Shown here: piece by piece, positions 11,815 to 52,559 of the stretch
Numbering within the stretch: the stretch's first letter is position 1
Layout: the number at the start of each line of letters is the position of its first letter
From: Suillus spraguei
Taxonomy: Eukaryota > Basidiomycota > Agaricomycetes > Boletales > Suillaceae
Assembly: GCA_016800925.1 (NCBI GenBank)
Contig: JABCPU010000167.1
Span: 62,001 to 126,000 of the forward strand
Length of the DNA: 64,000 bases
Direction: 5' to 3'
Translations under genes and position numbers: made by a program
The notes under the pieces: model-generated
Seen by the model: the letters and a program-made list of their open reading frames with translations, nothing else
Database searches by the model: none
What the model was told of the DNA's origin: nothing

Positions 11815-12715
11815 AACCTGGTCAGCGTGGTTACCACAACATATGTTTCTCTTTGGAACCTGCCGAAAACGAGGTTTTTTTCTGTCGGAACATTCACTCA
11901 TCCATGGATGGTTTCTTTAGAAGTCCATCGTATCGTTGCTAACAGAATCAAAATCTGTTTCTCTTGGACTGTACAGGTTCGAAACCTGCTAAACTACAGT
12001 CTTTTCTATTGGAACACACTTTGGCATTCGTTCATAGATGGTTTCTTTAGAAGTTCATCATAACTGGGGTGGTTACTACAACAGAATCAAAATCTGTTTC
12101 TCTTCCACTGTGCAGGTTTGAACCTGCTGACGACAAGGTTTTTTCTATCGGAACACATGTTGACATTCACTTGTGGATGGTTTCTCTGGCAGTGCACCGC
12201 AACTGGTCTAGTCTGGTGGTTGCTACGGCAGAATCAAAATCTGTTTCTCCTGCGTCGTGCAGTTCCGAAACCTGCCGACGATGAGGTTTTTTCTACCGGA
12301 ACACACCTTAACATTCACTCGTGGCAGGTTTCTTTGGAAGTTCATCGTAACTGGTCTAGCCTGGTGGTTGCTACAACAGAATCAAAATCTGTTTCTCTTG
12401 GACTGTGCAGGTTTGAAACCTGCTGATGACAAATTTTTTTTCTATCAGAATACACCTTGACATTCACTCGTGGATGGTTTCTTTAGAAGTTCACCGTAAC
12501 TGCCAGATGGTTGTTATAACATGATCAAATTCCGTTTTTCTTGGACTGTGCAGGATTGAAACCTGCTGACACCAAGCTTTTTTCTACCGGAACACACCTT
12601 GATATTCACTTGTCAATAGGTTCTTTAGAAGTTCACTGCGCCTGGCGGTTGCTACTATAGACTTAAAATCTGCTTGTTTAGGTTCGAAACCTGCCGATAA
12701 CTTTTTTTTTTCAAT
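11815..12715 (+). repeat. Tandem array of ~145 bp tRNA-like units
   Basis: Six to seven imperfect units with a 139-148 bp period; the AACAGAATC-type anchors start near 11941, 12080, 12227, 12375, 12518 and 12658. Each well-kept unit has three elements in order: a D-arm-like TAGC/GCTA stem with a GG-containing loop, a 5 bp stem with a 7 nt loop (ACAGA-ATCAAAA-TCTGT), and a 5 bp stem with a T-loop-like sequence (GCAGG-TTTGAAA-CCTGC). An oligo-T run of 6-9 follows within ~20 nt. An acceptor stem is not convincingly formed. Frames through the array are open only because the unit repeats. Confidence 0.6.
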
Positions 12716-13546: not shown

Positions 13547-13819
13547 CATCAGGAAATTCACACATTCCTTGACATGCTTAATCAGCTTAACTCACTTATC
13601 TCAAAACTTGTTTGCTCTCTCTCACATCATTCACCTGGCATATCTTATATTTTTTGAGTGCGAAATACAATAAAACATGTATATTAATATATCTCAACTT
13701 TTTTTTTCTGAATTCATTCACGTTGAAATTTTGGACAAGTAGATTCAATTTCACCAAGGCAGTTAAGTGTAAATAAGTCCGCATAAGGGCACGTTAAGGA
13801 ATGTGCGAATTTCCTGATG
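13547..13819. mobile_element. 273 bp MITE-like TIR element, copy A (in gag)
   Basis: It starts CATCAGGAAATTCACACATT and ends in the reverse complement; the terminal inverted repeats are ~31 bp with about one mismatch. It is flanked by a 2 bp duplication, AG (13545-13546 and 13820-13821). Removing the element plus one AG restores the gag frame. It has no coding capacity and is AT-rich, with a T9 run. It is identical in length to copy B at 17576-17848 and differs at only four positions, all transitions. A non-autonomous DNA transposon is the best reading. The TSD length would suit some CMC-type families, but I cannot assign one. Confidence 0.85.
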
Positions 13820-14460
13820 AGGAAGCAGCGCGCAAAGAAGAGAAAAAGAAAAACAAGCACAAGTACACTCCAATTCTTGAAACAGGCATTCCTAACGAGC
13901 CGGCTATCACGCCATGTTCCTATGTTCTCCAAAAGCTCGATAAGGGAGAGTACGTTGAGTTGTGGTACTTCACCAATGACGGCTTAGACGAAGCCAGTAT
14001 CAAAAAAACCATTGATGATGACGCCATGATCCTTTCCACGCTGGCAGACGGCTCAACAGCCTGGGTGTCTTCTGCTTCCACGCGAAACGCGCGATCAGTA
14101 GTGAACGATGAAGATCTACCATTCAAGGAATTTTGCCAAGCTTGTCCTCGTTTTCTGACAGCAATAGGGGAAGTGGATTGGCCGGAAGATAGAATTCGAA
14201 TGATGGCGCGCTTCTGGATGAACATCCAAGTTCACAAGTATCGCTCTTTAAGAGATCCCATAGCCCATAAGACTCTCTTGACCTATCAAGCCGAGCAACG
14301 GAGACGATGGCACGTCGCCACAAAGTCCTCAGTCGGACTGTACGACATCTCCGTCGTCAATGAGAAGGTTCTACAAGACACGAGGGAGAAGGTATATTGG
14401 GAAGAACGCAATAAACGAGACAATGCTCGCGACTACAAGTGGAAAATTTTTAAATTTGTT

Positions 14461-14625
14461 GATGCCACACTCGCCACATGCTACCCGCTTCACGCTACAT
14501 GCCTCCCGCTACACGCTACATGCCACACTCGCTATATACCACCTGCTTCACGCTACATGTCACCCGCTACATGCTACATACCACTCGCTACACGCCTCAC
14601 GCCACACGCTGTATTATATGCACAT
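14461..14625 (+). repeat. CACGCTACATGC minisatellite inside gag
   Basis: About ten imperfect copies of a ~14-16 bp unit built from CACGCTACATGCC / CCCGCTACATGCTACA. It is translated in frame as His/Ala/Thr/Tyr/Pro-rich repeats (LHATC, RYMSPATCY). It lies between the helical N-terminal part and the zinc-knuckle part of gag and probably expanded after insertion of the element. Confidence 0.75.
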
Positions 14626-14959
14626 CATCTCTTGCCACAGTCCGATCAATGTACTAGCTCATCGAGACAACGAGACTGGAAAGACTCTCGCAAGCGATCA
14701 GCTTCGCCCGAACACTCGGGCAGGGGGAAAAGGCAATGTCAGGATTTTCGTTCGAGCGCAAACGGAGGAGTCCTCTCCGCTTGCGCTGTCTGCCTCGGAC
14801 GAAACCCTCACAGGATTATCGAGTGCAAGGCACTTCAAACTTGGGACGACGCTTTCGACACCCTATGCTCCCGCATTGGCAAACTCCTCACCATGCGAGA
14901 CGGCAAGTCAATCTGCAGCGACTGGCAACGAGTCAGCGGGTGTTCAGAAAGTACTCACG

Positions 14960-17023
14960 ATCGAAGGCACTTTTGTTCAGGATGTGGTGCCTCCACTCAC
15001 GGAGCTCAGACGTGTCCTCGAGCACAGAAGGCTTGAAGCACTTACCCCATATAATCCGAAGGTTTGGGAGTCGAAGCTGGCGTCAAATGGTCTTCTTGAC
15101 AGGTACCCACATATACCCGAAGGATTGCGTCGAGGCTTTCGTCTTCATATTCCTACTATTAGCATCACTCAATCCCCGCCGAACAAGCAATCTATTGTTA
15201 CATATCAACAAGAATTCCTTAATATTGTCCAAACTGAGCTTAAGAAGGGAAGGTATATCGGACCGCTTCGAGCAAAAGAAGTCGAGGACCTCATCGGTCC
15301 TTTTCAAACATCTCCTTTTTCCATCATCCCCAAGCCAGGCCGCCCTGGACGCTATCGCATCATTCAGAACTTTTCATTTCCTCATGCTGCTTCCTCGAAG
15401 TTTCCTAATTCTTCTATCAATTCTTACATCAATTCCGATAATTTTCCCAGTACTTGGGGTACCTTCCACGTCATTGCGCTTACAATCAGTCGTTTACCAC
15501 CGGGATCGCAAATCGCGATCAGGGACATATCAGAGGCGTACCGCACTGTACCCATTCATCCATCACAATGGCCAGGGTCAGTTGCCCGTATCTCCGACGA
15601 CCTTTTTTGCATCGACACTTGTATGTGTTTCGGTCAGCGTCCTTCGGCGGGAGCATACGGGTCCCTTGCTGATGCAGGACTCGATTTATTTCGTTCTCAA
15701 GGAATCGGGCCCGCATCTAGATGGGTTGATGACCATATGTTCATACGCATTCTCAAACAGTACATTCCAGACTACAATGAAAAGAGACGGACATGGCACC
15801 AAGATATCGTTGAAAGAGGGAAGCATCAGGATGGGGGGAGAATATGGTTTGGAGGCTTCATATTCGAGGACGGCTCTTTGGAAGAGTTCGATGAAGACTG
15901 TCAGTTTCCAATTAGAGATCTGTCGGGAGCATCACCCAGGTCAATCGAGGACGCGAAGTTCTCCTGTAACTTATCGGACATTGATGATGCCTCAGACGAG
16001 CTCAATATTCCCTGGGAACCTCTCAAGGACAAGGACTTCGCGTATGTCAATCCATACATTGGCATTATGTGGGACTTGGCGCAGAACAAAGTCTACCTCG
16101 ACGAGAATAAAAAGAAGAAGTATCTATCAGCAATCGAAGTTTGGCAAAACCGCAGTACCCACGTGCTCAATGACATACAGCAACTATACAGTAAGTTGCT
16201 ACATACCACGCTTGTTGTTCCGAAAGGACACGCATATCTTACGTCGCTCGAAGCTATGTTGTGCCTCGCTTTTGATAAGCCTTTTCTCCCACGAAGGCCT
16301 GTCAAAAGCCTCAATTCTGATCTTTCCTGGTGGAAAACTCTGTTGCGGAGCTCTTTCGTCAGACGCACAATCCCTAGACCTCTCAGTCTGTATAACCCAG
16401 AAGCATATTCAGATGCTATCTCTGGGTTTGGAATCGCTATCACAATCGGAGTCAAATGGCGAGCCTGGCGTCTTCAAAAAGGATGGCAAACCCTCAATGG
16501 TAAAAAAGACATCGGGTGGGCAGAAGCTGTCGGCTTCGAGCTACTTATTATCTACCTTGTCGGGATGGGAGGATCACAACGTCATTTCAAAGTCTTTGGG
16601 GACAATCAAGGAGTCATCGAGGGCTGGAGAAACGGACGCAGTAGGAATTCAGCCGTCAACGAGGTCTTTCGTCGAATCTTCATCTTTATCGACAATTCCG
16701 CCAAATCTTACTCGTTTCACCCCACATACATCGCTAGCAAAGAAAACCCCGCAGATGATCCTTCCAGAGGAGTCTACGGCAGCGCAAAAGACCTATTGCC
16801 AGATCTCCCCATTCCCACAGCGCTCGATCCATTCATTGTCGATCCATTCATTGCCTCTACAGATCCGAGAAGATATAGTACAGATGGAATCCAATCAGTT
16901 GCCCCCGTCACATCTGCTCTCAACAGTTCCAATGAAACTGTTGAAAAAGACACAGGTATCATCAGTGACGCGCTCTATCATATCCACCAGAGACAGCAAT
17001 ATCCGTCTGGACTCGCGCTTTAG
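14960..17023 (+). CDS. Reverse transcriptase-RNase H of DIRS-like element
   Basis: The start is unresolved; the frame is open from well upstream in overlap with gag, and conserved sequence begins near 15050 (LTPYNPKVWESKL). RT motifs are RYRIIQNFSFP, motif A in IRDISEAYRTVPIHP, FGQRPSAGAYG, and motif C as RWVDDHMFIR, so the usual YxDD box is xVDD. RNase H follows: AYSDAISGFGIAI (first Asp), AEAVGFELL (Glu) and VFGDNQGVIEGW (second Asp). The frame is open to the stop at 17021-17023 with no break, so this enzyme alone may still be intact. It copies the element's RNA. Confidence 0.85.
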   Translation: MEGTFVQDVVPPLTELRRVLEHRRLEALTPYNPKVWESKLASNGLLDRYPHIPEGLRRGFRLHIPTISITQSPPNKQSIVTYQQEFLNIVQTELKKGRYIGPLRAKEVEDLIGPFQTSPFSIIPKPGRPGRYRIIQNFSFPHAASSKFPNSSINSYINSDNFPSTWGTFHVIALTISRLPPGSQIAIRDISEAYRTVPIHPSQWPGSVARISDDLFCIDTCMCFGQRPSAGAYGSLADAGLDLFRSQGIGPASRWVDDHMFIRILKQYIPDYNEKRRTWHQDIVERGKHQDGGRIWFGGFIFEDGSLEEFDEDCQFPIRDLSGASPRSIEDAKFSCNLSDIDDASDELNIPWEPLKDKDFAYVNPYIGIMWDLAQNKVYLDENKKKKYLSAIEVWQNRSTHVLNDIQQLYSKLLHTTLVVPKGHAYLTSLEAMLCLAFDKPFLPRRPVKSLNSDLSWWKTLLRSSFVRRTIPRPLSLYNPEAYSDAISGFGIAITIGVKWRAWRLQKGWQTLNGKKDIGWAEAVGFELLIIYLVGMGGSQRHFKVFGDNQGVIEGWRNGRSRNSAVNEVFRRIFIFIDNSAKSYSFHPTYIASKENPADDPSRGVYGSAKDLLPDLPIPTALDPFIVDPFIASTDPRRYSTDGIQSVAPVTSALNSSNETVEKDTGIISDALYHIHQRQQYPSGLAL

Positions 17024-18472
17024 CACACCTCTTCCACCAGACCCCATAGCGAAACCTTTACCATATAAGACAGGTCTCATACCAATACCCTCGCAATTGC
17101 GTCCACACTGTCTAGCGCGAGAGAGACTAAAACTCTGGTTTCCGTCAGAAACCAGAATAGCGAGAGGAGCAGATGGACTTTTTCTGGCGATTGCAGAAGA
17201 AGACCTGCAGCGGGTCTTGACCATAATGAATCTATCATGGGCACCGGGAACGAGAGAATGTTATGGAGCAGGACTTTTAGTATTTCACGTCTTCTGTGAC
17301 GAGAGGAGCGTACCAGAAGAGCAAAGATGTCCAGTGGACACGAGGACCATGCTGAATTTTGTTGCGAGTTGCGCCGGGTCCTATTCCGGAAAAACAATAT
17401 CGAACTACGTCTATGCTGTTAAAGCTTGGCATACACTGCATGGTCAGCCTTGGGAGATTCAGCAAGACGAACTCAAAGCATCCTTGGACGGCGCATCAGA
17501 ACTCACTCCGGATACCTCCAAACGACTCAAACGCGAACCCTTCACTGTAAAATTCATTCTCGACATCCGCACCCACATCAGGAAATTCACACATTCCTTA
17601 ACATGCTTAATCAGCTTAACTCACTTATCTCAAAACTTGTTTGCTCTCTCTCACATCATTCACCTGGCATATCTTATATTTTTTGAGTGCGAAATACAAT
17701 AAAACATGTATATTAATATATCTCAACTTTTTTTTTCTGAATTCATTCACATTGAAATTTTGGACAAGTAGATTCAATTTCACCAAGGCAGTTAAGTGTA
17801 AATAAGTCCGCATAAGGGCACGTCAAGGAATGTGTGAATTTCCTGATGCATCTAAATCTATCAGCACCTCTCGACGCAGCAGTATTCGCGTGTTTGACGA
17901 GTGCCTTTTATGGCCTATGTCGCACTGGAGAGCTCACAGTCAAGTCGATGAAAGCGTTTGATCCAACAAAAAACGTCAAGCGCTCGAATCTAGAGATGGA
18001 CGTCGAAGATAGACATGAACTTAGAGTAACGAAGATATTTTTGCCACGCACCAAAGTTGCAATGGCCGGAGAAGGAGTATACTGGGCGCAACAACAAGAT
18101 CTCTCGGACCCCAAAGCCGCTATCCTTAATCACCTTTTAATCAACGATCCTTCGCAAGATAGCCACCTCTTCGCCTGGAAGCACAAAAATGGCATGAGAC
18201 CATTAACCAGGTCCGAATTCTGGAAACGGATCAGCAGAATAGTTAAAAGAGCAGGACTGGGAAATCTCAAAAGCCATGGCTTACGAATTGGGGGAACTTT
18301 GGAGTATTTGCTTCGAGGAGTGCCGTTTGACGTGGTCAAATCTATGGGAAGGTGGTCGAGCGAAGCGTTCACCATTTATTTGCGCAAACATGCGTTAATT
18401 TTGGCACCTTACCTGCAAGAGTCACCTGCCTTGGAACCCTTCACTCGCTATACTATGCCTCCAATACGCTGA
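16884..18472 (+). pseudogene. Tyrosine recombinase of DIRS-like element, split by an insertion
   Basis: The frame opens at ATG 16884, overlapping the RT end, and is cut at 17575 by the second 273 bp element. It continues from 17851 (T|HLNLSAPLDAAVF) to the stop at 18470-18472. Catalytic signatures are visible after the insertion: the first Arg in FYGLCRTGEL, H-x-x-R in KSHGLRIGG, GRWSS in place of the third conserved motif, and the likely nucleophile Tyr in FTIYLRKHA. The N-terminal part has the SAM-like arm-binding helices. It would integrate the circular cDNA. It is non-functional in this copy. Confidence 0.82.
17576..17848. mobile_element. 273 bp MITE-like TIR element, copy B (in recombinase)
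   Basis: Same length, ends and internal sequence as the copy at 13547-13819, with four transition differences. The flanking 2 bp duplication is CA (17574-17575 and 17849-17850). Deleting the element and one CA restores the recombinase frame. The orientation is the same as copy A. Two near-identical copies in one retroelement indicate recent activity. Confidence 0.85.
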
Positions 18473-29754: not shown

Positions 29755-31490
29755 GCTTGGGGTGGCTTGCGAATACAAAAGGTGTTATGCGGATTAAATC
29801 CAACAAGATTCTACATGAACAAGACCGAATGGATGTCATTGACGGGAGGCCGTTCCCGTTTATCGTCTGAAGGAAACTATCTAATTTAAACTTTAAAGGG
29901 TGGTGGAACATGTGCGTGACTCCGGAAAACGCCGGCCGAGCACTTATAGTGCAACTAATAAATTCCCTAGTTCAAGTGAAGCTTCTGCCAATTGCTTACG
30001 ACAGACGAAGACATGGAGGGCTATCGCTATCTCCACCACTATACTGCCAAAGCGACACAAGAACAGGGAAATGCGTTCCTGATAACGATCAGGCGAGTTT
30101 AAGAATCCTTTCTCACTCTTGCGTCAGTAGCCATGCACGCAAGGTACTTGTAGAGCCAAGGTTTGGAGTGGCAGCGTGATGGCAGCAACCTGTAATCTTA
30201 CACGCATGTCAAAGACTGAATCGACGTCATTAGAAACGTGTGATATAGTTCATACGCATGAACTATTGTTCAGATATTCATCGAGGTGAGCTGCTTACAT
30301 GGATTGCAGAGTAACGGATCTGTTCCAGAAATAACAGTTTGACGACTTTAAATAGAGCCAGCTGTTATCGGTGCCCTGACGAGATATGAAACTGCATTGA
30401 ACCGTCATGTTGTCCACAGCACCACGTCTGGCAGTAATCTCCGCTGGGGTCATGGGCGCTGCCGTGGCGAAACGCCTAACCAGCTTCGGCTGTACAGTCT
30501 ATACTAACCTTGAAGGGCGCTCTGAAGCCACGCGAAAGCGAGCACAAGATGCAGGGATGATTGAGCTTTCTGTCAACGAGCTCGTACTCAAGTCGGACTG
30601 GATTCTGAGCATCTTACCGCCAAGGGATGCTTTGTCGTTTGCCGAAAAGATACAGGAAGTTGCTGCCAGGAGCGCATTGCCCTCCCCACGGACGTTTGTT
30701 GACTGCAATGCGGTCAGTCCGAAAACGGTCAAACATATCGCGGCGCTTTTTGCAGGGACGAATGTTGGCTTTGTTGATGCTAGCATTATTGGGTGGCCCC
30801 CGAAAGACGACTACAATCCCACATTCTACGCGTCAGCGGAAGACGTGAAAATTTGGATGAATTCACTGCGTTATCAAAATACGGTTTGAAAGTATTCCTC
30901 TGAAAGGAGAATGTGTAGGGGTTGGTGATGCTAGCGCACTGAAGATGTCACATGCTGTAAGTGGAAGAGGCGGACGTACAAGTCGCACGTTACCAAAACA
31001 TCTTTGACAGGGAATATCGAAGGGAACCGCAGGATTGTACACCACGATGGTGCTAGGTGATTGATATCGTCTTCTGAAGAAAACGGGTGATTGACGCAAG
31101 GCAGCGGCTCATGCATCCTCACCTGCGACCGCAGATGCTCTCATGAGAGAGCTACAGATCTCGCAGCCAATTTTGTTGGATCGTCTAGTGAATGATGTAC
31201 CGCCAATGATACCCAAAGCGTACAGATGGATTAGAGAGATGGAAGAAATTGCTGACTTTGTCGGTGGGAGTGAGGGGGATGTCTACCGGGGTATAGCGAA
31301 GGTATATGAGCGAGTTGAAAAGTCGATAGCAGGTGACCAGGAGGACATAGAGACGTTGATGAATTTTGTGGAGAAAGCAAAGAAATAGCTAGGATAGACT
31401 ATGCAGGTGGTTCACTCGAGAACAAATACAGGACCGTGGTGAGTACTTACCAGTACATGGTACATAGCATCCCGACTCAAGTGGGGTTCT
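29755..31490. repeat. Segmental duplication, copy 1
   Basis: Aligns with 32795-34180 through the 5' flank (GAGGCCGTTCCC, TTTGGAGT(G/A)GCAGCGTGATGG, CATGCATGTCAAAGAC-like blocks) and the whole 6PGDH-like gene. Divergence is mostly substitutions and small indels, greater in the flank than in the exons. Confidence 0.85.
30407..31388 (+). CDS. 6-phosphogluconate dehydrogenase-like oxidoreductase, copy 1 (frame breaks)
   Basis: Paralogue of the gene at 33192-34177 with the same three-exon layout. The NAD(P)-binding start is MLSTAPRLAVISAGVMGAAVA, then LKSDWILSILPPRDA, and the C-terminal domain has RLVNDVPPMIPKAYRWI and GDVYRGIAKVYERV. Two single-base losses relative to copy 2 break the frame at ~30850 (TTT against TTTT) and ~30891 (TT where TTT would give KVFPLKGE). 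The Gly of IIGGPP is Trp here. Either a young pseudogene or an intact gene with homopolymer errors. Splice sites are conserved. Confidence 0.7.
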
Positions 31491-32794: not shown

Positions 32795-34180
32795 TTAGGG
32801 TGACCTCAATGGCTTATGAATACAAAGGCGGACTAAAGCCAACAAGACTGAATGGATGGAGGCCGTTCCCATGTATTGCTGAAGGAAGCTGTTCCTGGCA
32901 CTACTATAAAAACAATACGTACTGCAACTAATAAATCGAAGTTCCCTGTAGTTTACATAAACGGTTCTTCAACTAAGGTTTGGAGTAGCAGCGTGATGGT
33001 AGCAACCATACAATCTTACATGCATGTCAAAGACTTTATCGACATCATTAAAAACGCGCCATACAATACGCATGAACTGCAGAGTAACGGACCTTCTTCG
33101 ACCATTTCCAGAAATAACGGTTTGATGACTTTATAAATAGAGCCGGCTGTTATCGGTATCTTCATGAGATATGAAACTACATTGAACTATCATGTTGTCC
33201 GCAGCACCGCGTCTGGCAGTAGTCTCCGCTGGGGCCATGGGCGCTGCTGTGGCGAAACGCCTAACCAGCTTTGGCTGTACAGTCTATACTAACCTTGAAG
33301 GGCGCTCTGAAGCCACACGAAAGCGAGCACAAGATGCAGGGATGATTGACCTATCAGTCAACGAGCTCGTGCTCAAGTCGGACTGGATTCTGAGCATTTT
33401 ACCGCCAAGAGATGCTGTATCGTTTGCCAAAAAGATACAGGAAGCTGCTGGGAACGCATTGCCATCCCCGCGGACGTTTGTTGACTGCAATGCTGTCAAC
33501 CCAGAAACGGTAAAACGCATTGCGGCACTTTTTGCAGGGACGAGCATCAGGTTTGTTGATGCTGGCATTATTGGAGGCCCCCCGAAAGGCGACTACAATC
33601 CTACATTCTATGCGTCAGCGGAAGACGTGAAACTTTTGGATGAATTCACTGCGTTATCGAAGTATGGTCTGAAAGTATCTCCTCTGAAGGGAGAAGGTGT
33701 GGGGGTTGGAGATGCTAGCGCGCTCAAGATGTCGTATGCTGTGAGTGGAAGAGGCAGACGAAGAAGTTGTACGTTACTAAAACATCTTTGACAGGGAATC
33801 ACAAAGGGAACCACGGGCTTGTATACCACAATGGTGCTAGGTGATTGTTATCTTCTGTTCTTGTGAAGGAAACGAGTGATTGACATAAGCCAGCGGCTCG
33901 TGAATCCTCGCCTGCGACTGCAGATGCTCTCATGAGAGAGCTACAGATCTCGCAGCCAATTTTGTTGGACCGTCTGGTGAAGACTGTACCGCCCATGGTA
34001 CCCAAGGCGTATAGATGGATTGGAGAGATGGAAGAAATTGCTGACTTTGTTGGTGGGAGCGAGGGGGACGTGTACCGGGGTATAGCAAAGGTATATGAGC
34101 GGGTTGAAAAGTCGATAGCAGGTGACCAGGAAGACATAGCGACGTTGATGAATTTTGTGGAGAAAGCAAAGAAATAGCAA
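32795..34180. repeat. Segmental duplication, copy 2
   Basis: Counterpart of 29755-31400. Starts near GGCTTATGAATACAAAGGCGG (compare GGCTTGCGAATACAAAAGG at 29764) and ends at the gene's stop codon. Confidence 0.85.
33192..34177 (+). CDS. 6-phosphogluconate dehydrogenase-like oxidoreductase, copy 2 (intact)
   Basis: Exons 33192-33740, 33795-33840 and 33894-34177 give 292 residues plus stop with all phases matching. The N-terminal Rossmann fold has VVSAGAMGAAVAKRL, in which the first Gly of the usual GxGxMG is Ser. Then come LKSDWILSILPPRDAV, FVDCNAVNPETV and GIIGGPPKGDYNPTFYAS. The C-terminal all-helical domain (QPILLDRLVKTVPPMVPKAYRWI) matches the DUF1932-type partner of 6PGDH-like/3-hydroxyacid dehydrogenases. 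It probably reduces or oxidises a 3-hydroxy-acid-like substrate; the specific substrate is unknown. Confidence 0.8.
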
Positions 34181-43484: not shown

Positions 43485-45475
43485 GACGATTTGATTAGGA
43501 AGAATTGACTCTGATGTACTGTAGATTTATTTAGCTAGACGTTGAGCATAAGCCATGCATCACTGCGAGGAAGTGAAGTACCCTATGACGTGTACGCCCT
43601 GCGGTGCACCAAGTGGATACAATGGCTTGCGCCAGCCAACACCTTGCAGTCGTTTTAATTATCAAATAGAAAACATGGTTACTGAGATCCATGTACGATT
43701 TCAAATATAGAATTGACTCACATTTACGGAAGCGGTCAGCTTAGGGTCTCCTCGTGTACGCCTCATGGTGCATAACTATATCAAATATTGCCCACTGCCC
43801 AGTGATTCTAGTACCCTGTTATCAGTCGAACCTTACTCGGTTCTTTCGAGTTTCTCCAAATCCTGCACAGAAAAAGTCCGAACACCCTCGTGGTAAGTAT
43901 TCACAACGAAAAGACCCCAGACTCTGCTTGATATCGGTTCGCTTCAGTTTATTGTTGCAGCAATTATCGAGCAGCCTTACTGACAGCATTTATAATGAAA
44001 ACCTCGTTGAATGTTTCTCCAATGAGGCCCAGGCTGAGGCTCGGCGCTTTTATGGGTTCCAAATCACAACGAACACCTCTCATTGACACTTATGTAAGCG
44101 CTTGTCGCTTTCACTGCTATCAAAGCCTGGATCTTCTCTGGTTCCTTCGCTATATCACAGCCATGCAAAATTCAGTGGTACAACTCGGCACGGCCCGTCG
44201 ATGGACACAAGATGCACTGCAGCAACCAGCGCCCCGAAGAATCATGCCAGTGCCATTCTGCACACTTGCTAATGCCCTTCGATCAGACAGTTGTGTTCAT
44301 GACCGGGCAGCATACTGTACATAATTATATCGAGTCGTGACTAGCGAGTTCGACGACTCGCTAGTTCTACTCTACTACTCACCGATGTTCCCATCTCGAG
44401 TTCAGTACCGTGATACACTCATAGATGAGTACTTAGTAGATTGAATAGTTGAATATCATATACTTCTGCCTCGTTGTCTCGGCCGCTGTACTTAGGCGTC
44501 ACTTGAACCTCAACCACCCCCACCTATAACAAGACACTCTGATCTTTTGCTTGTCCGAAATACCTCCCTACAACAAGACACTGTAACCCATTTTATGGCC
44601 CTAGCGGGCTTCGCATTTTCAAGCAGTCGACGTTAAGTTCAAGGTATATTCATCGACGTCATTACACATTCTATGATACAAATGACATGACGTCTGGATA
44701 CTAACCACCATGTCAGGAAAGAGAACGGTAAGGGGAAATGGAGGAAAAGACGTTAATAAGAGAAAGATAACGACAACAGAAGATCAAGGAGGCTGATGAG
44801 CTGTGTAAGATCATTTGTGGCTGCATCCAGGAGGGACATTACTACACGAATAACTTACATACCTCGTACACAGCCTCGGGCCTGCTACATCCCGAAAGCT
44901 GCTCGCCTGCGGCCTTAATGAACCTTTTTAGTGGTGAGACAACCTTTCTGGGCAAACTAACGAGAGCAGCGTCTTCTTGCTATCCAAACTCAAGTTGCGC
45001 AGGGATGAAGATATCTTGATACCATTGTATACCGCTCGATAATGGCTGCAACATAAACTGAAACGAATATGAATATGTCGAGCAGAGTCTGGGGTCTTTT
45101 CATTGTGGATGGCGTGAGGTCCGAAGGGTACATTGAACTCTATTTCCAGAACGTTGCGATTGCAAATATAGATATCATTTTGTGACATAACAAGGCAAAC
45201 ATAAGGTTAGTTCAATCGACTAAGATAACATGAACTGCCGGTCTTCCTGAATTCTATGTGATCGCAAGGTCCGAGCTACTTATGGGAGACCAGGGACTCG
45301 GAGATTAAATATAGTAGGTACATTTATTACGTTTCACGGGGCTTAAGGGCAAATTTCAGTGCCAACGACTCGTGTACGGCGGAAGTTGATTTGGGTTAGC
45401 TAAGGGTCCACACTGCACACTGATAAATTATAAGGTTGCATCAACGCTTCTCACTCACAATATTTACCTTCCCTA
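43485..45475. other. Intergenic between two divergent GTPase genes
   Basis: About 2.0 kb with no supported gene; short frames near 43754-44324 show no motif. It contains the small perfect inverted repeat at 44340-44365. Confidence 0.5.
44340..44365. repeat. Perfect 10 bp inverted repeat, 6 nt loop
   Basis: ACTAGCGAGT and its reverse complement ACTCGCTAGT are separated by TCGACG. It could form a cruciform or be a protein-binding site; no T-run follows, so it is not a terminator. Confidence 0.6.
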
Positions 45476-46498
45476 TGGATCCTTCAGAGATAAAGGAGAA
45501 AATCGGTCGCTTTCGAATCCTCACTATAGGAAGAGCAAATGCGGGAAAGACTACCATTCTCCGGAGGGTTTGCAATACTCGGGAGAATCCAGTAATCTAT
45601 GACTGCGCTGGAAAAAGGTGCGCGCTAGTAAGAGGTGGCAGTGATCACTACTAACCCGTTAACATCAGGTCGACCCTGCAGTTTTAGATCCATCCAGAGA
45701 GGTATTGAGGTGTGCTCTTGGTTGATGACATGAATTGACATACTCTCAGCGTGGAGAGCACAATATTGAGAATGAATTGGTGTTCCCAAGCAACCCGGGA
45801 TTCGTCTTCCATGATTCACGTGGGTTTGAGGCGGGCGGCGAATCCGAGTTTGACCAGGTCAAGGAATTTATCGTGCGCCGTTCAAAGGAAACCAAACTAA
45901 AAACCAACTCCATGCTATATGGTAATTGTAACTGATCAATCGCGACGTGTGCCATCTCACATTTTAACACAGGTATTGCATCCCGATGGACGAGGCAAGC
46001 AGATCGTTCACTGCAGGTGAAGTCAAATTTTTTCCCAGTGTGACACAGGACGCAGTAAGCGACTATAGTTGATGTTCAACTGATGCGCAAACTCACACTC
46101 CTCAGTCCCTGTGATAGTATTATTTACCAAGTTCGATGCCTTCTACGATGTCGCCTACGGAGAGCTAAAATCAAAGGGAAAATCAATAAAAGACGCTCGA
46201 GCACTGGCCCCGACACACGCCGAGAAGTCATTTGCTAATGGGCCGCAATTGGAGTTTCTCAAGGGTGTCCGGTGGCCTCCAAAATGCCATGTATGCCTTC
46301 CCAGTAAGCTAAATGATAGTCAAATTGCGATGGGTAATGACCATTGATCCATTAGACATGGACAAGGATGATGCAGATTGTGGACCACTCATCGAACGCA
46401 CAGCTGGAACTCTGGATAGCGACGTGCTTCAGCGATTATTCGTCTCAACGCAGCAGATCAACTTGGAGCTCTGCATGAAATATGCAGTTGAGCAGTAA
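45476..46498 (+). CDS. P-loop G-domain GTPase adjoining the micro-exon array
   Basis: Starts MDPSEIKEKIGRFRILTIG; G1 is GRANAGKTT. Then come RGEHNIENELVFPSNPGF and FHDSRGFEAGGESEF (G3 DSRG), QLHAIWYCIPMDEASRSFTA, and PVIVLFTKFDAFY (G4 TKFD). It ends LFVSTQQINLELCMKYAVEQ. Three frame slips at 45612-45616, 45898-45903 and 46028-46033 each disappear if the A or T run is one base longer. The apparent stop at 46496-46498 sits in a GTAACT donor-like context (GAGCA|GTAACT), so the transcript may splice on into the array that begins at 46706. Divergent from the G-domain gene at 43484. Likely nucleotide-dependent switch; role unknown. Confidence 0.75.
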
Positions 46499-46732
46499 CT
46501 ACCCATCGTCTCATTTACCTCGCCACAAGCGTTGACGACTGATATCGTCTAGCATACTGCGTTACCTCTTGCACCCAGCTGAGACAACTGAGAATTGCAT
46601 GAGGCGTTAATAGCCAGATGCAGTCTCTGGTTTCCACATATTTCTGTAAGATTATCAGAAAATTTGAAGGTCGTTCTCATTTATGTTTTGGGCGTTTACT
46701 TGCAGATGGTATGTTGATTAATCCCATGGAGT

Positions 46733-47700
46733 TATGCTGATCCAAGTCCTTGCCCACTCTTCGCAGGCTGTGAGTGTGTCGATCCTCCTTCGAGCTCGAG
46801 CGATGCTGATCCAAGTCCTTGCCCACTCTTCGCAGGATGTGAGTGTGTCGATCCTCCTTCGAGCTCGAGCGATGCTGATCCAAGTCCTTGCCCACTCTTC
46901 GCAGGATGTGAGTGTGTCGATCCTCCTTCGAGCTCGAGCGATGCTGATCCAAGTCCTTGCCCACTCTTCGCAGGATGTGAGTGTGTCGATCCTCCTTCGA
47001 GCTCGAGCGATGCTGATCCAAGTCCTTGCCCACTCTTCGCAGGCTGTGAGTGTGTCGATCCTCCTTCGAGCTCGAGCGATGCTGATCCAAGTCCTTGCCC
47101 ACTCTTCGCAGGATGTGAGTGTGTCGATCCTCCTTGAGCTCGAGCGATGCTGATCCAAGTCCTTGCCCACTCTTCGCAGATGTGAGTGTGTCGATCCTCC
47201 TTCGAGCTCGAGCGATGCTGATCCAAGTCCTTGCCCACTCTTCGCAGGATGTGAGTGTGTCGATCCTCCTTCGAGCTCGAGCGATGCTGATCCAAGTCCT
47301 TGCCCACTCTTCGCAGGGTGTGAGTGTGTCGATCCTCCTTCGAGCTCGAGCGATGCTGATCCAAGTCCTTGCCCACTCTTCGCAGCTGTGAGTGTGTCGA
47401 TCCTCCTTCGAGCTCGAGCGATGCTGATCCAAGTCCTTGCCCACTCTTCGCAGGATGTGAGTGTGTCGATCCTCCTTCGAGCTCGAGCGATGCTGATCCA
47501 AGTCTTGCCCACTCTTCGCAGGCTGTGAGTGTGTCGATCCTCCTTCGAGCTCGAGCGATGCTGATCCAAGTCCTTGCCCACCTTCGCATCTTCGCAGCGT
47601 GTGAGTGTGTCGATCCTCCTTCGAGCTCGAGCGATGCTGATCCAAGTCCTTGCCCACTCTTCGCAGGCTGTGAGTGTGTCAATCCTCCTTGGAGCTCGAG
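46733..47700. repeat. 69 bp minisatellite, 14 copies
   Basis: The unit runs from GATGCTGATCCAAGTCCTTG through CTCTTCGCAG to the GAGCTCGAGC block, with a period of exactly 69 in most copies. Copies are almost identical, which implies recent homogenisation. Variation is concentrated in the three bases after CAG (GCT, GAT, GGT, CGT). Because 69 is a multiple of 3, all frames stay open; long ORFs on both strands here are artefacts of the repeat. Confidence 0.92.
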
Positions 47701-48491
47701 CCGTTCTCAATCAAGCCATCTCCCGTTTGTTGATAGGATGTGAGTGAGCCCATCATTTATTAAGTGTAAGAATTTCTGACTCAAGCAATCGACGATCTCT
47801 CGGCAGGAGGTCAGTACATTGATCTTCTACCGACCTTGAGCCACTCACAGAACAAATCATTGATCTCTTGACAGCTTGTGAGTGTGATCATTTTCTGCCG
47901 ACTTCCTATCTTCCTCATTGATGTGCTCCCTGATCTATTGTCAGGGTGTGAGTGTATTGATTCTCCGTCGCCCTGACGCTATGGTCTATACTGACCGAAA
48001 ACATTGCTGCTTCGTTAACAGCTTGTGAGTTGGTCCATCCAGTATTGAACTCGAATCATACTGACTGACGCGTTGCCCATCCATTGACAGAGTGTAAGCA
48101 CAATGATCCGCAGTCGAATTGGAGTATCACTGACCAATGACATTGCCGATTCCCATTGACAGCACGTGAGTAGTGTTCATCTACGGTTGAGCTCAAGTGT
48201 CGCTGATCGATTGACAGTCGGTGAGTCTCTTCACACCAATCGAGCGTCAGCCTTGCTCACCAATCCCAATCCCATGGCTCATCTACTCACAGCATGTTAG
48301 TGTGCTGATCTTCTGTTGAGTTTGAGTTTTGCTTACTACTGAAATCGCACGTCCCTCAACAGTGTGTGAGTTTTTTTATCTTAGAGTCTTGCTTGCAAAC
48401 GATATCGCTGATCCATCAATAGGAGGTTGGTTTCTTTATCCTCCTTTGACTTTGGGCCATGCTGAATGAAGATGCTACACATTGGCAGAAA
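47701..48491. repeat. Diverged continuation of the array (12 units)
   Basis: Units of 55-77 bp no longer align with the 69 bp unit over most of their length, yet each keeps a YAG, three bases, a GTNNGN donor and a CTNAY-like site. The 3 nt steps read GAT, GAG, CTT, GGT, CTT, AGT, CAC, TCG, CAT, TGT, GAG, AAA. Confidence 0.8.
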
Positions 48492-48778
48492 GTGAGTGTA
48501 TCGATCCTCAGCAGAGTGGACGATTTTCAATTTTCCATCATTGTTTGACCAGATTTCTCGGGAACAGTGCGCAGACATGCAGTCTAGGTTACTCTCTGTG
48601 GTGTGTCTAATTAGTCACAAATTGTACACATTTCTCATGTTGCGAATGTGCCAGGTCTCTGGCTCAACACCCTCGGAGACCGATGTTCAACTCATTTCTG
48701 GTGAATTTCGAGGCTACGTTGCGACGAACCTGCTTATTATCGATCATTTAGCCTGCCATTATCTTTGAACACTCTTTC

Positions 48779-50489: not shown

Positions 50490-52074
50490 CACAAAATGTT
50501 TGCAAGGGACTCGAGTGGATCTCCTGAAATACATCCACGGATTCCTAGACAATACAGAGAAGAATCGACTCGTTTGGCTGCATGGCACGGCTGGCGTTGG
50601 AAAATCTGCCATTGCATTTACAGTAGCTGAAAAATTGAAATTCTAAAAGTGAGCGAAGAGACAAATGTCGAAACGCGGTTAGCGGGAACATTCTTTTTCT
50701 CGTGCAAACACACCAAATGGTGTACGGGTGGATATTTCTTTGCGACGCTCGTCTACCAGCTTGCCACAAATTTTCCAAGCATCCGGCGAGATGTGAATAG
50801 AGCCATCTGCAACAATCCCGCTCTACTAGACCTAGACACGCCTCTCTGCGACCAGATGGAGGCTCTCTTTCTCCAACCCCTCAGGAAACTTCAACTCAGA
50901 TTGCGTGTATGTCCCCCTTTGACGTTTGTTGTCGATGCCCTTGATGAATGCACATGCGAACCTGAGCTTACCGATCTCATCCTTTCCCTTGCGCGGGCTC
51001 TTCATGAGCCTGATCTGCCCGTGACCCACATTCTGCTCACGAGTCGCTCGGAATCGCATATTTGTAAAGCCTTTCGGAATGAAGAAGTGCGCCCGCTGGT
51101 GTGCGAGATACCAATGAAAACTTCTGGGGAGGGCGTTACTACTATCATCTCGCTAGATGGTGCCGATGTCGACAATGACATCTGTATATTTCTACAGCAT
51201 TCATTCAGAGAGCTACAGTGCAGCCATCCCAATTTCCCGCAACCCTCGTGGGGTGACCTTGCGAAGCTGGCAAGGCGAGCTGGCAGACGATTCATCATGG
51301 CGTCGACGACGACGAAATTTATTGTCGATGGATACAAGGATCCACGGGATCAGTTACAACTGATGTTCGAACTGACAAGCGAGCTGCTAGCAGGAACGGA
51401 GGTGTACAAGTTATACGATTATATCCTCTCTACGTGTACCGACCCCAAGCGGGCATACCTGCACTTGCAGACCCCCTGTCGCTATCACAAATCTCGAAAC
51501 TCCTCGGCCCTGGTCAGGGCTGTGATGCTGAGACGACGCTAGTGCAGCTACGGCCTGTCATGGATATCCCTATAGATAGCACTCTCCCCGTGAGTATATA
51601 TCACTCATCCATTCGCGACTATGTTTCCGATCCATCAAACTGCGGCCTTCCTGAAGTACGCGATATCGCATCACCTCACCCTCACTCTCTGCTCGCATGT
51701 TCTTCTCTCCGAGGAGGACGAGACTGGCTGCAGACAGGGAGGGAAAATTTGGCTGCAGACCCGGGGAGGACGAGACTGGCTGCTGACAGAGGGAGGACGA
51801 GACTGGTTGCGGACCCTGGGAGAACGAGACTGGCTGCAGACCCAGGGAGGACGAGACTGGCTGCGGACTCGGGAGGACGAGATTGGCTGCACAGTCCCCA
51901 CGGTCAAGAGTGGCAGTCCACTCCTGCGGCCTCCGTCTGGGTGACAATGGAAGAATTCTTGAAAACATCGGAAGTACTCAACGGGTATATCATTACCAGC
52001 GACCCGCCTTTACTGCCAGCTTTTCAAGTAATCCAGCAGATCAAGACTTTGCCAGATTTCTCAAGTGATCTGTA
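50490..52074 (+). CDS. NACHT-domain STAND NTPase, damaged or truncated
   Basis: Conserved sequence starts at CLQGTRVDLLKYIHGFLDN, then Walker A in LVWLHGTAGVGKSAIAF (50584-50607), RLAGTFFFSCKHTKW, Walker B-like FVVDALDECT, VTHILLTSRSE, FIMASTTTKFI and SLSQISKLLGPGQG. It ends in PAASVWVTMEEF and LLPAFQVIQQ. A 27 bp coding repeat (GGRDWLQTQ) sits before the end. No WD40 or ankyrin sensor repeats follow, although many fungal NACHT proteins have them. Frame slips at 50638-50640 and 51871-51873 fit one-base homopolymer losses; another break near 51465-51475 may be real. This family works in self/non-self recognition and cell death signalling in fungi. Confidence 0.7.
51719..51905 (+). repeat. 27 bp coding repeat (GGRDWLQTQ-type)
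   Basis: CGAGACTGG recurs at 51719, 51771, 51798, 51825, 51852 and (as CGAGATTGG) 51878, with a spacing of 27 in the core. In the correct frame each unit encodes nine residues, G-G-R-D-W-L-x-T-x. Spacing slips at both edges shift frame relative to the surrounding NACHT exon. Confidence 0.8.
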
Positions 52075-52559
52075 GCTGTGCGAACTGTGGAAGAATTCTA
52101 TTCTGCTCCTGCAAAAATATGCCGTTAAAATTTTGAGTTGTACAACTTGTAGATCTATCGACGCATCAATAAATGCCTGAGTAACATGAGCGCTTGAGCA
52201 GTGCATTGCAACAATGTGATGACTCTAGTGCTCATCAGCAAACCACAACGCTCTGTACATCCTCATTGGTGTTACCATAGATTATCTGGACAAATCTAAC
52301 CTTGCGAGTCTGTGGAGGGCACCGACAGTAAATTAGATGAATCCGAGGCACTGGCGCTTAACAAAGAAGGAATCTATCTGCTAGTATATGGGCGACTACC
52401 TGATACGCAACATGTGATGCCATGTTAATGTATACACCCACCTAGTACTACAATCAGAATGCCAGAGCCCCTCACTCTCGAGTTGTTTCCTTAAGAACGA
52501 AGATGGCACATATCTAACGAGTTGTTCAAGCTTTCCCCCTATTGACCGAATTGTATAGC
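52075..52559. other. Intergenic, nothing recognised
   Basis: No gene or repeat seen between the NACHT gene and the palindromic cluster. Confidence 0.5.

Follow-up and report, generated by a model that had tools for sequence, protein, structure and literature searches.

We find that an array of 27 minute exons in the window (the whole stretch of 64,000 nt analysed here, C333:62001-126000) most probably represents the variable segment of a large P-loop GTPase gene family, which would be spliced codon by codon into a diversified peptide; judged from sequence, we assign this reading a probability of about 0.78. The gene that carries the array comprises the following features, all on the forward strand.

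45475..46494, + strand: exons 1-6, separated by ordinary short introns, of a P-loop GTPase with a PF01926-like G domain, from DNA matches to further copies
46553..46645, + strand: exon 7, which encodes WFPH, where the conserved part ends; its 93 nt (94 nt in intact copies) are out of frame, with stops
46706..48491, + strand: micro-exon array: 27 units, 25 with a 3-nt and two with a 2-nt exon, and 26 introns of 52-74 nt between them
46767..47669, + strand: 5' zone of the array, near-identical 69-bp units with codons GCT/GAT/GGT/CGT; holds both 2-nt exons and differs between close gene copies
47737..48491, + strand: 3' zone of the array; its 12 units have diverged introns and correspond by position to those of paralogues
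48553..48600, + strand: first ordinary exon after the array (48 nt), placed by eye from likeness to locus L049, where it is in phase 0
48655..48700, + strand: next exon, C-terminal part, placed by eye from likeness to L049
48752..49048, + strand: C-terminal exon region, its frame interrupted relative to C392 and C453 (by eye)

The window array is real and not a product of chance. Its first unit, CAG-ATG-GTATGT, has 26 further units behind it, and a recount bore out both the run of 27 consecutive units described in the initial annotation, two of them with 2-nt exons (at 47180 and 47386), and, with all 26 introns measured, the intervals of 52-74 nt. The donor is GTGAGT in 22 of the 27 units, with GTATGT, GTCAGT, GTAAGC, GTTAGT and GTTGGT occurring once each. 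A CTNAY site had been claimed for every interval; it is present 8-45 nt upstream of the intron end in 24 of the 26 introns and absent from the other two, and among the last 13 introns, which are diverged, it occurs in 11, against a rate of 0.36 in letter-shuffled introns. That the 3-nt spacing persists in the diverged last units, as also claimed, is confirmed by a chain search of segment 47720-48570, which recovers 10 of 12 units at 3 nt (score 53.4), compared with at most two units in 300 dinucleotide shuffles and at most one in 284 overlapping 850-base tiles covering both strands elsewhere in the window. Fixing the exon length at other values between 0 and 12 nt yielded nothing in this segment except one 7-nt unit.

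The stretch 46734-47701 is also a tandem repeat as detected by TRF (96% matches), and an intronic minisatellite therefore has to be weighed, namely a 69-bp repeat inside one long intron, whose splice-like motifs were copied recently and carry no meaning. Where units are this alike, conserved motifs are expected without selection, and stray single units do exist outside the gene family; the points that tell against such a repeat lie in the spliced frame, the diverged units and the codons, as set out below. Reverse-strand coding across the array was considered and rejected: three minus-strand frames are open there (324-333 aa), which we take to be a by-product of the 69-nt period, because the units range from 66 to 77 nt, which shifts the frame, and the diverged half lacks an open frame.

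The host gene belongs to an expanded family in this genome (86.2 Mb searched, on 1256 contigs), whose closest protein relatives come from Suillus species; none of the homologues matched the retrieved loci exactly, the best stretch reaching 94% over 50 aa. Exon 1 was placed at 45475-45618 by tblastn with a Suillus protein query. At the DNA level, 45476-46520 has four further full-length copies at 95-99% identity (C453, C392, C922 and C1100) and nine more at 70-82% that extend over its full or almost full length. Genome-wide, the upstream part of the gene gives 17 matches, two of them fragments and one a partial copy, and the C-terminal exon query gives 20 matches at 18 places, numbers which may include alleles. 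The assembly may indeed keep both haplotypes in places, since a 1.1-kb stretch near the window end (C333:124800-125900) is about 100% identical to C432:8420-9520, while another stretch has no such copy. A Pfam scan was run on five homologues rather than on the window gene itself, one of them (P0103) being a fragment without the G domain. P0001 (23.7 bits) and P0104 (22.4) score above the 21.9-bit cut-off of MMR_HSR1 (PF01926), and P0012 (20.1) and P0078 (19.6) fall below it. In these five (P0001, P0012, P0078, P0103, P0104) no NACHT or ANK match was found at E<=1, nor any match to a WD, ANK or TPR fold; the repeat of the array consists of an intron and one codon.

The copy at L049 allows the whole arrangement to be followed through. 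When spliced in silico, its seven ordinary exons, 34 one-codon exons and three further ordinary exons join into 520 codons with no stop, with ordinary splice sites picked by hand and a model that stops short of the gene end, and all array introns of this copy are in phase 0. Exon 7 likewise closes in phase 0 and free of stops in L047, L048, L049, L051, C453, C392 and C922. A single open spliced frame of this kind is not what a meaningless minisatellite would leave.

Exon length is specific across the genome. We searched for tandem pairs of the pattern YAG-N3-GTGAGT repeated N45-70 apart, with the same pattern read backwards as control, and found 387 pairs with 3-nt spacing (control 3), none with 4-nt spacing (control 258), one with 6-nt spacing (control 12) and 21 with 2-nt spacing (control 2); the high control at N4 probably arises because the reversed pattern fits the array intron (TGAGTGTGTCGAT). 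The array intron is present at two of the 2-nt places, on C522 and C1100, and of the other 19, 13 belong to a different repeat as judged by eye. This repeated element, an intron-like stretch ending in AG, then AT, then GTGAGT, lies at 13 places on contigs C392, C569, C678, C814, C1008, C1032, C1091, C1146 and C1191, and is possibly a second family with a 2-nt exon. Tandem GTAAGT pairs number seven (control 4), all of them array-like units by eye.

A chain search without length preference at nine loci, which took in 25 of the 27 window units, found exons of 3 nt in 224 of 234 units. Seven 7-nt "exons" in this set are, by eye, mostly 3 nt followed by a weak donor, one being a unit with a mutated donor. 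No 0-nt exon (an acceptor abutting a donor, as at a recursive splicing or ratchet site) occurred among the 234 chained units, with lengths of 0-12 nt allowed. In L048 the unit after CGA carries a 9-nt exon (AACTTGAAC) where its relatives have 3 nt, so that its length has changed and is still a multiple of three. Parsing 11 copies for exon length gave 3 nt in 368 of 379 units, a count that registers only units fitting the donor list and thus misses lost ones (window 25/27; C522 23/27; C453 30/31; C392 86/87; C922 45/47; L047 43/43; L048 28/29; L049 34/34; L051 13/13; L050 13/13; L052 28/28, the parse of L050 and L051 being probably incomplete). Among the nine copies parsed more fully, array size ranges from 27 units to the 87 of C392.

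Proteins and gene models from other sequences also speak for splicing of the array. Between the WFPH motif and the C-terminal part, P0001, P0012, P0069, P0122, P0123 and P0103 hold a segment that varies in both sequence and length, which a minisatellite inside an intron would not provide. The contigs of P0001 (543 aa in 1848 bases), P0012, P0122 and P0123 measure 1.1-1.8 kb and we call them cDNA-like because they are too short to contain the array introns, as is the contig of P0069; we infer that they are transcripts of such arrays. P0103 may derive from a contig that is not fully spliced, since it has 325 aa in 2295 bases. P0069 equals P0012 plus 17 residues in the variable zone that read like one retained 51-nt intron (GC...AG), and a retained intron seems to form the end of P0007, P0015 and P0038 (all by eye). 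The prevalence of NNT codons predicts an absence of K/E/Q/M/W, and indeed none of 81 residues is of this kind in three zones picked by eye (P0001, P0103, P0015), against 23% in whole proteins; we give this little weight, because such residues do occur in the variable zones of P0012, P0026, P0070, P0078 and P0123.

Traces of the introns are found in gene models of further species. Stretches that resemble the phase-0 translation of array introns (VSVSILLRARAMLIQVVAHCSQ; best local scores 68-93 over a background of about 29-36) occur in those of S. bovinus, S. cothurnatus, S. brevipes, S. subluteus, S. plorans and S. clintonianus, and the S. plorans model has two such stretches with one residue between them. 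Among the best 120 homologues, which are mostly but not only Suillus models, 107 have a WFPH-type motif, and 76 of these 107 end within 40 residues beyond it; models thus mostly stop at the array, and the variable segment seems to be missing from annotation. A long variable zone is also present in P0078 and P0101, whose tie to Gymnopus is weak.

Together, the genome-wide length specificity, the open spliced frame, phase 0, the cDNA-like proteins and the introns in other Suillus support the view that one-codon exons are spliced, and held at 3 nt, in this gene family. The selection for splicing of one-codon exons proposed in the initial annotation thus applies to the family, as its length specificity, open frame, phase and cDNA-like proteins suggest, but the window copy is a doubtful case of it.

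That copy is probably not intact, given an exon 7 that is out of frame with stops and two exons of 2 nt, and it is probably a decaying member of the family. C522 also has stops in exon 7. Of the seven 2-nt exons found in the 11 parsed copies, six lie in the window copy and C522. Counting exons of 2 and 3 nt only, and hence leaving out four of 5, 7, 9 and 9 nt, six of 54 exons are 2 nt long in the window and C522, against one of 280 in the seven copies with an intact exon 7. The Fisher p for this excess in copies with a broken exon 7 is 9e-5 (C922 left out), a value that is only indicative, as neither units nor paralogues are independent of one another. The 3-nt rule loosens in copies that have already lost their frame, which serves as a natural control, and a concentration of 2-nt exons in frame-broken copies is not expected of a minisatellite. 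This comparison was used in place of the decayed loci L041-L043, which gave little: L043 has no run, L041 has one cluster of eight units of which only three are at 3 nt, and L042 has 3 nt in 16 of 18. Outside the parsed set, C1100 has 2-nt exons as well, and C453 has an intact exon 7, yet array lesions of its own.

The most striking feature of these arrays, absent from the initial annotation, is that codons are unlike between units whose introns are nearly identical. We compared units with introns at least 94% like the array consensus (85% for L047), restricted to 3-nt exons with listed donors; 22 window units were eligible, and L052 offered too few such units. The two largest sets, L045 (n = 32) and L049 (n = 18), show a mean pairwise difference at codon positions 1/2 of 0.61/0.75 and 0.71/0.57, against 0.021 and 0.014 in the intron, such that these positions vary 30-50 times more than the intron. 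Values for L048 (n = 8) are 0.68/0.79 against 0.040 and for the window (n = 7) 0.29/0.67 against 0.000, and the contrast is much smaller among the older units of L047 (n = 13; 0.51/0.72 against 0.169). Positions 1 and 2 are the two most variable of the unit's 69 sites in four of five arrays; L047 has them in first and third place. Eleven units of L049 with an identical intron carry seven different codons, and 29 units of C392 with an identical intron carry four. Position 3 is T in 156 of 198 codons; it shows no variation among alike units in the window, L045 or L047, but its diversity of 0.29 in L049 and 0.43 in L048 exceeds that of most intron sites. None of the 198 array codons is a stop, which says little as only 1.6 would be expected.

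The two zones of the array behave differently. Upstream parts of C453 and C392 are 99% and 97% identical to the window, yet their 5'-zone codon strings are quite different, and the 5' zone is homogenised, with fast turnover. The 3' zone, of 11-12 units, is common by position to paralogues. Over 15 pairs of six paralogues (L045 being left out as too like the window, and L052 not aligned), the donor GT of the 3' zone is identical in 310 of 310 comparisons and the AG in 95.5%, the intron interior is 76% identical, and codon positions 1-3 are 59%, 70% and 63% identical. Some codons are kept nonetheless, with GAG and CTT the same in 7/7 aligned copies and GGT in 6/7; C522 has a 2-nt GA in place of GAG.

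Passive copying of a repeat would not retain GT and AG while the intron interior falls to 76%, nor would it place codons among the most variable sites of the unit; with the spliced frame and peptide described above, this leaves the minisatellite scarcely credible. A neutral ratchet, in the sense of constructive neutral evolution, fares better. On this account units must stay spliceable, the peptide is filler, and codon variation reflects relaxed constraint; selection on splice signals and on a length of 3n is alone sufficient for those two observations. Relaxed constraint would have codons change as fast as introns, however, and not faster, whereas positions 1 and 2 top the ranking in four of five arrays and are less conserved between paralogues than intron interiors, and filler gives no cause for GAG and CTT to be kept in every aligned copy. 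We consider the neutral account unlikely, and the "splicing ratchet" offered as an option in the initial annotation is not needed, although it survives as a rival in this neutral version.

We infer that the codon variation stems from diversifying selection rather than from a mutator. Codon-targeted mutation would yield equal variability: some mutagenic step, acting for instance on DNA that transcription exposes around the splice junction, or in the repair that accompanies unit exchange, would rewrite the micro-exon. The seven codons beside 11 identical introns in L049 form a steep contrast for selection alone, and in L048 and L049 position 3 varies as well, both of which would suit such a step. 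It would, on the other hand, have to leave the flanking AG and GT in place and spare position 3 among alike units in the window, L045 and L047, and we know of no codon-targeted mutation process of this kind; we regard it as improbable.

How units arise can be read from marked introns. Introns with an 8-bp duplication are followed by CGT in 14 of 15 cases, and introns ending in CTCTTTGCAG by CTT in all seven; because marked introns keep their codon, we conclude that the unit duplicates as intron plus codon and that the codon changes later. These associations weigh against gain of the introner type, in which an intron element is inserted repeatedly between old codons and only the introns are young. 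Such gain would explain near-identical introns beside unlike codons, and array-like units elsewhere in the genome indicate that the sequence can move. Insertion is not expected to produce an exact 3-nt spacing, however, nor a 5' zone that differs among copies whose upstream parts are 97-99% identical to the window. In a genome-wide pattern search single array-like units appear on many other contigs; of eight such places inspected, six are one unit within a dispersed repeat, one (L063) is a fragment of two units, and one (L062, C1113:189200-190200) is a short, decaying array with several donors altered from GT to AT (TATATGAGT). These eight places imply that fragments of arrays have spread and that a stray array decays at its donors, and we hold introner-type gain to be very unlikely. 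Arrays or fragments also occur on contigs without a C-terminal exon match (L041 on C301, L042 on C339, and C136, C326, C515, C573 and C599), and may be mobile, truncated or allelic copies. Sequence like a 148-bp tandem repeat of the window (11941-12636, 4.8 copies) precedes four stray single units (L057, L060, L061 and L064; by eye).

Under the preferred reading of codon-by-codon splicing, each unit would be a complete short intron with a one-codon exon in phase 0. In such fungi short introns are recognised across the intron; every intron would be removed separately and the codons would join into a variable peptide between the conserved GTPase half, which ends in ...WFPH, and the C-terminal part. 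Tandem duplication and exchange would multiply the units and keep their introns alike, and unequal exchange would alter peptide length one residue at a time. Selection would favour new residues and push the codon to change, mainly at positions 1 and 2.

The arrangement has partial counterparts elsewhere. PRDM9 zinc fingers and TALE repeats are homogenised arrays in which specificity residues vary, with few variable residues per 28-34; those are protein repeats and not introns, whereas the Suillus arrays have one residue per exon. Schistosome MEGs resemble the Suillus arrays, as far as the available summaries describe them, in their many short symmetric exons and variable proteins. MEG exons measure 6 nt or more, not one codon, and MEGs are not known to have homogenised introns. 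In the basidiomycete Phanerochaete chrysosporium, P450 genes share with the Suillus genes very short exons and introns, having microexons of 2-10 codons and a shortest exon of 6 bp, but the accessible part of that report describes no tandem one-codon exon arrays (PMC1184071). Introners are families of near-identical introns, as outlined in the abstract-level account (PMC9860276); the Suillus introns, in contrast, lie in tandem in one gene family and are duplicated with their codon.

Closest in structure are the nank genes of the ascomycete Tuber melanosporum, an ectomycorrhizal fungus, which are reported to form an expanded P-loop NTPase family with tens of codon-sized 3-nt microexons, described as a diversification mechanism, and with alternative splicing reported (PMC3689799, PMC4986451, PMC10197012). 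The run is accordingly not unprecedented, although the initial annotation knew of no described gene like it. Tandem runs of tens of 3-nt exons in an expanded P-loop family are common to both systems, as in the window (25/27), C392 (86/87) and L049 (34/34). The Tuber genes are described as having NACHT and ankyrin domains, whereas the Suillus genes are basidiomycete and have a PF01926-type G domain, with no NACHT or ANK match in the five homologues scanned. The kind of structure is thus already known, and the Suillus case is one of a different gene family in a different phylum. Within the scope of a literature search of titles and abstract openings, which took in few subscription journals and no bioRxiv, no one-codon exon arrays were found in basidiomycetes or in GTPases of this type.

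In their evolution the arrays recall the repeats of Podospora HNWD and other fungal NLRs, for which the parts consulted describe concerted evolution with diversifying selection, near-identical tandem repeats, copy-number change and few hypervariable codons (PMC4986451). Repeats that are near-identical except for a few hypervariable codons are likewise seen in the Suillus arrays, more weakly in L047 with its older introns. The HNWD repeat, by the same partial account, is a folded protein repeat (WD, ANK, TPR), whereas the Suillus repeat is about 66 nt of intron plus one codon. From this likeness we would guess that the peptide recognises something, perhaps in nonself recognition. We see roughly even odds for a broader proposal, that Suillus and perhaps other mushrooms possess a codon-cassette diversity generator whose origin is independent of Tuber nank, encoding a hypervariable recognition peptide by up to about 87 single-codon exons, with units gained, lost or swapped by recombination while the frame stays unbroken. 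On this proposal any unit could also be skipped, as nearly every exon is 3 nt long, and alternative splicing could give very many isoforms per gene. If so, fungi would seem to have evolved codon-sized exon arrays on at least two occasions, in genes unrelated to each other, and a fast-evolving recognition region would seem able to use the exon-intron unit as its repeat. The density of single-codon exons also tests exon definition in short-intron genomes, and alike introns beside unlike codons offer a built-in yardstick for diversifying selection at one-codon resolution.

Several other features of the window were noted by eye. Frames at 50631-52075, downstream of the array gene, resemble a P-loop protein of STAND/NACHT type and include a 27-bp tandem repeat of 6.7 copies at 51713-51891. 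Long frames at 13798-18472 resemble a retroelement, with a reverse transcriptase and a tyrosine-recombinase-like part, and two closely similar NAD-binding dehydrogenase-like frames lie about 2.8 kb apart at 30401-30889 and 33186-33791.
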